Source: Cristatella mucedo
Taxonomy: Eukaryota > Bryozoa > Phylactolaemata > Cristatellidae
DNA: 64,000 bases
Reading direction: 5' to 3'
Assembly: GCA_009760855.2 (NCBI GenBank)
Contig: WPIO01000148.1
Location: 577,501 to 641,500, forward strand
Every line of letters begins with the position of its first letter. Position 1 is the first letter of the stretch. This document shows, piece after piece, positions 24,001 to 27,000 of this stretch. Below the pieces are notes generated by a model that did not search any database, was not told the origin of the DNA, and was given only the letters and a program-made list of their open reading frames with translations. Position numbers and translations under genes: made by a program.

Positions 24001-27000
24001 GAGTCGTTCAGCTGGCAGCTGCCGGTCGCTTGCTTCGCAACAGTTTCCCGGCAGAGGCACGCCAGTTTCGACCGTCGGTACTAAGCTGCGCCTCCCGCCG
24101 CGCTGGCTAAAGCGCACGAGCTCGAGAGGATCGCCAGTGGATCTAGTCGGCGCTGCCGGGCTCCTCTTGCGTCCGCTGAACGGCCGGCCGTCAGCTTCAA
24201 GTGGACACCACGTGAGCACAGCATTGTCTACGGGCCATACCGCGTTCAAAACACCGGTTTTCGTCCAATCACCGAAGCTAAGCAACGTCGGGCCTGGTTG
24301 GTACTTGGATTTTGACCGCCTGCGAATACCAGGTGCTGTACACTTTTTTTCTTTTCTTTCCTTTATCTTAGCCTACTGCAGCGAGCCGCTCTCCGCCTGC
24401 CGCGCCTTCTTTGGCACCGTGCTCAAGCAGTCTCTCGTCGATTGCATGCACGTTCGAACGTTCGCCGGAGTCTCGACTCGGCGGTCGGCGGCCGACCAGG
24501 TCGCTCTCGAGAGCCGCTCAGATCACGCGCGGGCGTCTGGTTTGGTCTAGCGGTTAAGGTGCTCGCCCCGACCAAGGTCTGACTGAGGTCGTGGGCTCGA
24601 GCCCCGAGGCACATGTGAAGCGCCTGAATAGAGATCAAGTTCTCTTGGGGCGCTATATAAAGGAATTATATATATATATTCAATATATTGTGCAAAGATG
24701 CTAAAAGAAAATACACTGACTGAGCCCTTTTTTAGGGTTAGGACAGAGAACAGAGCGGGCAGCACAGAGCAGGCAGCGCAGAGCAGGCCGACTAAAGCGG
24801 CGCACTTGGAGCAGGTCGCACAGAGCAGGTCTAGAGCAGGCAGGTCTAGAACAGGCCGCCTACAGCAGGCAGCTCAGAGCAGGCCGTACAGAGCAGGCTG
24901 CAAAAAGCAAGGTTGCTACTACTCTCCACAAGCTTAACATACCACTGACAGCACACCCCTCCCATTTGGATGAATCGGTCCCAAATCATTTGTTGTGGCT
25001 AAGATGATCCTAGACTGATACAGTAAGGTTCCACAGATCTTTGAAAAATCAGCTGTAGGTAAGAGCAAATTGGCAGGCATGGTCAGTTTCCCCTTTTTCA
25101 GACTTGGACTTGAGCACGGAGGCTCCCCAATAATACCTGCCAGACCCGAAATTACTTTACCGTGAGCCTGGCCCTAGCTTGTGCTACACTCACTCATGCA
25201 CAGCCCCTGGATCTTAGTTCAGGAGGTAAGGTGCTCGCTCTTCACGGCCCAGGTCGTGGGTTCGAGTCCTACAGTGGGCAATCCTCTATTGCCCACTGCA
25301 AGTGATATGTGGTGATAGCCGTTAAGGCTCTTCTGCTGCTATATAAATGAGGCAGTTGAATCAGCTAACCTTATAACTTAAACCTTATGCCAAAACAGAT
25401 GGAGTATGCTTTAGGCATCCCATGGACTCGTTGTAGACTAGTATTAGCCACCAGTCAAAAATGCTACATAGGAATCTAATCAACCCATCATTTCGAGGGT
25501 CCGGTATAATGGTGACATACTGGAACCAGCAGCAAGAAGCAGTAGCATTGGCCTATATCTCAACCAGCTAAAAAAAAATGTCCCGGCGCAGCTACGGAAA
25601 TGAGGCATCTGTGCTGCTGTCACCCTCTCCCCGAGGAAATGACAAGGCAGCAGCTTGGCTCGGCAGTTTCCCCCTCTCCTGCCGCCCAGGAAAATGTAGG
25701 CCTGACTTACATTAGCTGAGAACTACAGGTAGAGTTTAAAAACTCACTCAAGGTGACACATCGTGCACACCCTGCCGACACATGAGCCAGGCAAGATAAG
25801 CAGTTGCTAGCTTCGTCCAACTAGAAATGCACTTCATTAGCCCTTGCCCATGGATTTACGCTAAAAATTGTGGCCACGGCTTACCTGCATACGGCTGGCG
25901 GTTATACTCCAGCAGGAAATCACGGAAGTTGCAGTAGTGCGAGGCTGTCTCGCACAGCCTGCTTAAAAGGCCTAGCTCGGTGGGGTGAAGAAATGGCACC
26001 TGAAGCACCTGATAAAAAAAGGGAGAGCTTGGACAACAGCTGACTGCCTACAGCACACGACAGCACCCTTGTTTGTCGTAGAATGCAGAGTACACACACC
26101 AGACACTGCGCTGACGAGCAGCAAATGGTTACTGAATAAAGCACAGCTGGGGGCTCAATACAAAATGCTAGGCCAGATTCGAACCTTGAGTAGTAGGTAT
26201 GGCGACCTTTCATATAAGAAAAAACATTTACATATATATATATAAATATATTTATATATATTTATATATCTTTATATTTATATATATATATATATCCATT
26301 GTATATCGCCCTATGAGAACTTAATCTCTATTAAGGCACTTCACAAATGCCCATGTGCCACGGGGCTCGAGCCCACGCCCTAGGTCATCAAATACATTCA
26401 CCTTGACTTTGGTCAGGCAAGCACTTTGACCACTGGGAAAAATTAGCACTATATTCTGACACTAGTTACAAAAAGTGTGACTGCCACTACATGTGATAAC
26501 GATGTAACTCCCGTGGTGCTGGATATGCTGGGCAGCATGCCATCGGCAGGCCATAACTCACCAGGTCCGGTGGCCTGTAATACGTCATAAATAAATAAAT
26601 CCCAGCTGATTAAACAGCCTCTTTTTGTATGGCGACGGAAGAGCCTTTACGGCTATCACAGCCGCTTGAAGTGGCGATAAAGAATCGCCCACCGCAGGAA
26701 TCGAACCCCACGACCTCCGGACCGAGGTCGTGAAAGCAACCGCCTTACCTAGTGTGCCATCACGGCATCATCAGCCCTTACCTGAGCAAGACAAGGGGCT
26801 AGAAAAACCAACCTACCTACCGGGTCAAGATATAACTTCAAATACTTCAGCTTTTTAGGGACTTCAGACAAGCTGGTTTGGCCCAGTGGTTAAGGTGCGC
26901 ACACCGACCTAGGTCTGGTTTATGTGAAGAGCCTGAATAGAGAGTAAGTTCTCTTAGGGCACTACAACAATAAATTATATATTTTTGAGACCAAATATCT

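Follow-up and report, generated by a model that had tools for sequence, protein, structure and literature searches.

A SINE with a tRNA-like head in Cristatella mucedo shares a two-stem 3′ hairpin with LINEs, and LINE D matches its tail more closely than LINE A

SINE1 of the bryozoan Cristatella mucedo ends in a two-stem hairpin that also closes the 3′ ends of LINEs in the same genome, and among the families examined LINE D is a closer match to this tail than LINE A, the family with which SINE1 had been paired in the original prediction. We analyzed a stretch of 64,000 nucleotides (assembly GCA_009760855.2, contig WPIO01000148.1, positions 577,501 to 641,500 of the forward strand), referred to below as the window and numbered from its first letter. 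In the reading that we hold with good confidence, SINE1 is a tRNA-head SINE whose tail was donated by the LINE D lineage and which is copied by LINE machinery through the shared hairpin. Use of this LINE-type hairpin by a LINE reverse transcriptase is probable and, by analogy with other L2-type elements, well supported.

The copy at 24538..24686 (+) belongs to the young subfamily and consists of a tRNA-like head fused directly onto an L2-type LINE tail. SINE1 measures about 150 bp and occurs ten times in the window, as three young and seven older, diverged copies. The other young copies, at 50021..50162 (−) and 53779..53920 (−), are 95.8% and 95.1% identical to the one at 24538; the older ones lie at 9886..10016 (+), 11880..12015 (+), 14875..15028 (+, two pieces), 26280..26387 (−), 26874..26982 (+, two pieces), 46538..46601 (−, tail part with the head upstream) and 5567..5725 (−, two pieces). 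Within the head, a Pol III A-box-like motif, TGGTCTAGCGG at 24543..24553 (+), and a B-box-like motif, GCTCGAGCC at 24595..24603 (+) and GTTCGAGCC in the copy at 53920, were recognized by eye; we take the A-box-like motif to fit the consensus TRGYNNANNNG and GCTCGAGCC to stand one mismatch from GWTCRANNC. ARAGORN called no tRNA in the window, the SINE1 head included, and Rfam gave no tRNA match in the window or in SINE1. The 3′ hairpin spans 24614..24659 (+), with an A.A mismatch in its outer stem, an inner AGAGA/TCTCT stem and a six-nucleotide loop, UCAAGU, and the element ends in an AT-rich terminal repeat, (TA)n at 24664..24686 (+). Among the SINE1 copies examined this repeat is mostly (TA)n and in some (ATT)n, and LINE A tails carry (ATT)n.

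Searching the genome (572 Mb, 688 contigs) with SINE1 gave at least 42 matches, with the best 40 of 2748 first-look candidates scored; among the matches listed, nearly all showed 95-99% identity, the window copy itself aside. At 20 listed places (21 matches, L009-L028) the head, TGGTTTGGTCTAGCGG...GGGCTCGAGCCCC, passes directly into the tail, CATGTGAAGCGCCTGAATAGAGATYAAGTTCTCTTGGGGCGCTATATAAATGAATTATATAT, and SINE1 seems to have no central domain. Since CGAGC stands immediately 5′ of TGGTTTGG in 13/22 copies and is missing from the window copy at 24538, the full element starts a few bases before that position. A crude exact test on 22 copies revealed no clear target-site duplications: matches of 6-11 nt occurred in 5/22, some of them within the SINE start or a microsatellite. 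At one place (L016) two copies lie head to head with few bases between them. In the L029-L048 sample, positions 58585-59044 of the joined C332 stretch hold two oppositely oriented copies that, as LINE D does, have GGATAGAG and an (ATT)n end, and the subfamily of these copies has the SINE tail closest to LINE D. Exact patterns in viral contigs (two) and genome contigs (one), and blastn against phage records, returned no matches.

At 24226-24344 (+), 194 bp upstream of SINE1, lies a 5S rRNA-like sequence (Rfam 75.8 bits against a gathering score of 38) that is followed by a T run. It presumably resembles lophotrochozoan 5S and, being diverged, is perhaps a 5S pseudogene. We rejected it as a part of SINE1 and regard it as a chance neighbor, because the window holds one 5S match for ten SINE copies. 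The G+C content of the window is 50.7%; two 100-kb samples from elsewhere in the assembly gave 41.1% and 38.1%, the last value being too low because that sample is partly N.

The tail GAAGCGCCTGAATAGAGATCAAGTTCTCTTGGGGCGCTATATAA of SINE1 is predicted to fold into the outer stem and the inner AGAGA/TCTCT stem at −20.3 kcal/mol (z −4.56, 0/200 shuffles as good; two copies with identical letters). Of three LINE A tails folded, two behave like SINE1 (z −5.33 and −5.21), and the third, in which the inner arm is changed, is weaker (z −2.65, 1/200 shuffles as good). With up to three mismatches, AAAGCGCCTAGAAAGAGATT occurs 16 times versus 0.01 expected. A profile built exclusively from the 12 LINE A tails of the window gave the 10 SINE tails of the window 11.2-35.7 bits, compared with a maximum of 7.5 bits in 20 dinucleotide-shuffled windows; two window places in which we recognize no tail of this kind score 12.3 and 10.9 bits. 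By this profile alone the three or four lowest-scoring SINE tails are therefore insecure, and they rely on their heads too. The SINE1 tail is homologous to the LINE A 3′ end and a hairpin is predicted in each family, which bears out the common two-stem structure originally proposed for the two; the LINE A tail string quoted with that proposal is the majority sequence of the 12 window tails.

The accompanying claim that changes in the hairpin preserve pairing was not borne out. Across 28 window tails and 16 pairs, 85.4% of pairs are standard versus 85.3% with partners shuffled, the observed value being reached in 222/500 shuffles, and the covariation score of the stems is 0.143 versus 0.147 when shuffled. 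We therefore dropped covariation as structural proof, since the stems show none beyond shuffles. Because dead copies drift freely, its absence is no evidence against the hairpin, and sliding the stem partner drops pairing to 32-62% in the same 28 tails. Neither the tail nor the head of SINE1 exceeded the Rfam threshold, and four sub-threshold matches at SINE1 were taken as chance. The UnaL2 3′ element, which we take to be the Rfam family to look for here, gave no match up to E 10 among 40 window matches or the four at SINE1.

LINE A encodes a reverse transcriptase and is both abundant and fairly young. We assume it to be of CR1/L2 type, and LINE D likewise to be of the L2 clade, names taken from motifs and not from a tree. 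The 12 LINE A tails in the window include those at 6317..6396 (+, with (ATT)n), 30632..30712 (+), 54378..54451 (+, with the loop UCAAGU as in young SINE1) and 21894..21972 (−), the last belonging to the same copy as the ORF2 end 22988-22005. This C-terminal part of ORF2, a 327-aa open frame at 22005..22988 (−), is the longest LINE A frame in the window, and a reverse transcriptase stretch (GVPQ..FADDTQLYL) at 48223..48462 (+) lies in a broken copy, probably the one with its tail at 49347. Pfam detected no RVT_1 in the five window LINE fragments scanned, giving one sub-threshold DUF only. When the genome was searched with the 327-aa query (187,255 first-look candidates, best 122 scored), two copies that end in a LINE A tail (L085 and L086) showed stop-to-stop frames of 843 and 810 aa, which supersede first lengths of 884 and 851 aa that appear to overrun an in-frame TGA. 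RVT_1 is found in both, at E 1.8e-31 and 6e-29, and one of the two copies gave a sub-threshold endonuclease match to PF14529 at E 0.00096, with 19.4 bits against a cut-off of 27.4. In ORF2 of L085 we noted by eye, with no chance control, L, W, E and Y at spacing 0, 1, 17 and 20 along with many basic residues; an excerpt of PMC4176376 places tail-binding residues P, W, E and W at spacing 0, 1, 17 and 20 between EN and RT. Two LINE A tails, 49347 (+) and 49499 (−), meet tail to tail in a near-palindrome that gives an Rfam MIR395 match below the gathering score, a caution that nested LINE tails can mimic microRNAs. At 6882-7279, a 174-bp tandem repeat (2.3 copies, 99%) contains stretches like the LINE A 3′ UTR.

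Closer comparison of the LINE A and SINE1 consensus tails shows that 35-36 of 46 positions are identical, with near-fixed differences at seven columns. In 264 kb (the window plus a 200-kb sample that is partly N) we collected 72 tails, of which 18 are SINE-headed and 54 headless; as a head was recognized by its BLAST match to either of two typed heads, truncated SINEs, of which two were seen, fall among the headless ones. Every SINE-headed tail (18/18) carries six or seven of the seven SINE-type states, and the 54 headless tails carry none (32), one (10), two (5) or at least three (7). Among these last seven, two with six and seven states are apparently truncated SINEs, two have three states, and three with four or five, at 5435 (+) and 1823 (−) in the window and once in the sample, pointed to another LINE.

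That other LINE, LINE D, was sought from an intermediate, LINE D-like tail at 1757..1834 (−), which scores 3.2 bits higher with D than with A. A genome search with this tail gave at least 40 matches, and of 13 places examined three were of D form (L052, L055 and L059) and the other 10, by eye, A-like or intermediate; a second search, seeded with the L052 tail, yielded 1423 first-look candidates and at least 40 matches, 20 of which were examined. Given that the seed tail already resembled old SINE1, the LINE D copies are no blind sample of LINE families, and LINE D is the best of those sampled only. The LINE D consensus (26 copies) ends in TTCTCTTGCAGCGAGTTGTAAAGCGCCTGGATAGAGATTAAGTTCTCTTAGGGTGCTATACAAACGACCTATTATTATT. 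In the window, a LINE D-type tail at 5421..5502 (+) scores 71.9 bits with a D profile that includes it and still favors D over A by 20.8 bits with a profile that excludes it, and it lies 3′ of a diverged ORF2 remnant (~4207-4997). In 11/20 D copies the kilobase upstream of the tail holds a match on the same strand to ORF2 of LINE A or LINE B; some of these matches may be neighbors because the genome is dense in such LINEs. In 2/20 an upstream match lies on the opposite strand, with L081 in both counts. This strand bias, together with the resemblance among D copies in sequence well 5′ of their tails, speaks for D as a LINE family.

We compared the tails at 46 positions using typed consensus strings, the one for the ATT subfamily being drawn by eye from few copies, and found that LINE D is identical to SINE1 at 43 (old), 41 (young) and 43 (ATT subfamily) positions, versus 35, 37 and 39 for LINE A. 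When position profiles were derived from 20 D tails and from 18 sampled A-type tails, the D profile scored higher for 39/39 SINE tails (least margin 6.2 bits, median 19.1) and for 0/12 window LINE A tails, and D tails were assigned correctly in 20/20 cases when left out one at a time. Of the window tails that are not of D type, the one at 8596 leans toward D (+0.7 bits) and the other three toward A (−6.7, −6.7 and −14.1 bits). The consensus folds of D and SINE1 have in common the A.A mismatch and the helix beyond it, where the LINE A stem is an unbroken run of 11 pairs. Among the families examined, LINE D is thus the closer match to the SINE1 tail. Of the proposed parasite and host pair, the LINE-type hairpin of SINE1 and its probable use by a LINE reverse transcriptase are well supported. 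LINE A as the partner is not supported: a better match to SINE1 by another LINE family had been named as the result that would refute it.

For LINE A to be both donor and partner of SINE1, the differences between them would have to be drift in the SINE. LINE A does have the hairpin layout and inner stem of SINE1, and the apical loops overlap, UUAAGU being commonest or tied commonest in both headless (12/54) and SINE tails (7/18) and UCAAGU occurring in SINE and LINE tails alike; it is also abundant and fairly young, with the open frames of 843 and 810 aa described above. We nonetheless consider this explanation quite improbable, as the seven positions differ almost invariably in old and young SINE1 alike, LINE D is the better match for all of the SINE tails scored, and the LINE A consensus lacks the stem mismatch common to D and SINE1. 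LINE B was rejected as a partner: its 3′ end, read by eye from seven copies, is (CATTA)n without the inner hairpin, and all that it shares with the SINE1 tail, by eye, is a GCGCTATACAAA stretch. Copies of this L2-like family with its different, (CATTA)n 3′ end lie at 10444-11192 (−), 54455-55062 (+) and 47724-48156 (−), among others.

Capture of the LINE 3′ ends from the SINE, or convergence on a hairpin preferred by the reverse transcriptase, could be suggested by the fact that, where we compared SINE1 with the LINEs, the tail region alone was held in common. Identity at 41-43/46 positions, unpaired ones included, is too high for convergence. In each of LINEs A, A2 and D the hairpin follows a 3′ UTR that has diverged, which argues against reverse transfer and indicates that the hairpin in LINEs probably predates SINE1. 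We regard both of these routes as very improbable.

The ages of the families bear on which LINE could serve SINE1 at present. Measured as median K2P to the consensus of each family, divergence is 0.29 in LINE D (n=26), 0.057 in LINE A (n=13) and 0.17 in A2 (n=6). For mostly old SINE1 it is 0.188 (n=16), slightly low because one young copy (24613) was left in that set, and for young SINE1 it is 0.015 (n=24, range 0-0.088), in a set biased toward young copies since it was drawn mostly from best hits. LINE D and old SINE1 are both old, and young SINE1 is younger than every LINE D copy examined, which suggests either that the D-type tail is carried by some young LINE outside our sample or that SINE1 now depends on LINE A.

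The first of these options would place the exact SINE1 tail on a young LINE subfamily that is both donor and present helper, LINE D being an older relative of that subfamily, and we view it as possible though somewhat doubtful. It would account for a young SINE1 with a median divergence of 1.5% in a genome where the sampled LINE D is old, and it has a parallel in the carp HAmo pair, whose tails differ by one nucleotide and share a terminal repeat according to an excerpt of PMC2653535. Against it, the headless tails with six or seven of the seven SINE1 states in 264 kb amount to two, both apparently truncated SINEs. A LINE with the exact tail of young SINE1 had been sought and was found nowhere in the DNA examined, where LINE D came nearest. 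Of the features by which such pairs are judged, SINE1 and the LINEs examined share the hairpin tail but not a near-identical tail and terminal repeat (A 35-39/46, D 41-43/46), the terminal repeats of SINE and LINEs agreeing in the (ATT)n SINE subset only.

The second option, which we think rather unlikely, is that LINE D decayed and that SINE1 outlived its donor, kept the tail and at present relies on LINE A for mobilization in trans. Given that the apical loop of LINE A, UURAGU, overlaps that of SINE1 and that the LINE D copies examined are old, LINE A could be the helper used now. Its ORF2 would then have to tolerate a different internal loop and terminal repeat on the strength of an inner stem and apical loop that still match. 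If so, SINE1 on LINE A would show, as an experiment of nature, how strict the "stringent" recognition of tails is.

Returning to the preferred origin, a tail donated by the LINE D lineage, we suggest that a CR1/L2-type LINE supplied the last ~70 nt of SINE1 from its own 3′ end. The donor would be the LINE D lineage, which is old in this genome, and LINE A is a relative of that lineage whose hairpin is likewise related. A Pol III transcript of SINE1 would carry the two-stem hairpin that the LINE RNA has, a LINE ORF2 protein would bind it, by analogy with L2-type ORF2, and the SINE1 RNA would be copied into DNA at a nick by target-primed reverse transcription. Pol III transcription, binding, trans-mobilization and the transfer of the tail from LINE to SINE are steps that we infer. 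Excerpts of PMC4176376 report for zebrafish L2 LINEs that deletion of the 3′ hairpin abolishes mobility, that loop swaps or mutations strongly lower or abolish it, that the stem can be swapped if the loop is retained but cannot be disrupted, and that a region of ORF2 between EN and RT binds the hairpin. LINE A, LINE D and SINE1 form a trio in one genome, in which the two LINE lineages are related but differ in age and, slightly, in their hairpins. The trio could be used to test the tail specificity of ORF2, because the internal loop, one stem mismatch and the terminal repeat differ, in parts of the hairpin with an only partly known role in recognition. In other respects this is ordinary parasitism of a SINE on LINEs.

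A word-based literature search yielded nothing tied to the SINE1 family, and we make no claim that it is unpublished; the kind of pairing, between an L2-type LINE and a SINE, is already well known. The portions of PMC3747384 consulted (Table 1) list tRNA SINEs with L2 or CR1 tails in vertebrates, sea urchin and sea anemone, and Gecko, paired with an I-clade LINE, fills the sole protostome row of this table from 2013; among bivalve SINE families, LINE donors are known for 3/8 according to an excerpt of PMC10294476. The same arrangement, in other hosts and with other sequences, is found in MIR/L2, AFC/CiLINE2, SmaI/SalL2, Nve-Nin-DC-SINE-1/L2-22_NV and SINE2-8_SP/L2-1_SP, which we liken to SINE1 by their description in that table (PMC3747384). 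CORE-, V-, Deu- and Nin-DC SINEs likewise have LINE tails, whereas SINE1 apparently has no central domain. The eel pair UnaL2/UnaSINE1 is alike in joining a tRNA-type SINE and an L2-clade LINE by a common 3′ hairpin tail, and mutations in the UnaL2 stem-loop cut mobility (excerpts of PMC4176376 and PMC3747384). It differs in its loop, GGAUA (excerpt of PMC2653535) versus UURAGU here, where the tail has no Rfam match and the case is made from sequence. In carp, the HAmo SINE and HAmoL2 similarly combine a tRNA SINE with an L2 tail hairpin in one genome; a single nucleotide separates their tails, and TAAATG repeats terminate both elements, as described in the same excerpt of PMC2653535, whereas SINE1 and LINE D differ at 3-5 of 46 positions and the terminal repeats vary.
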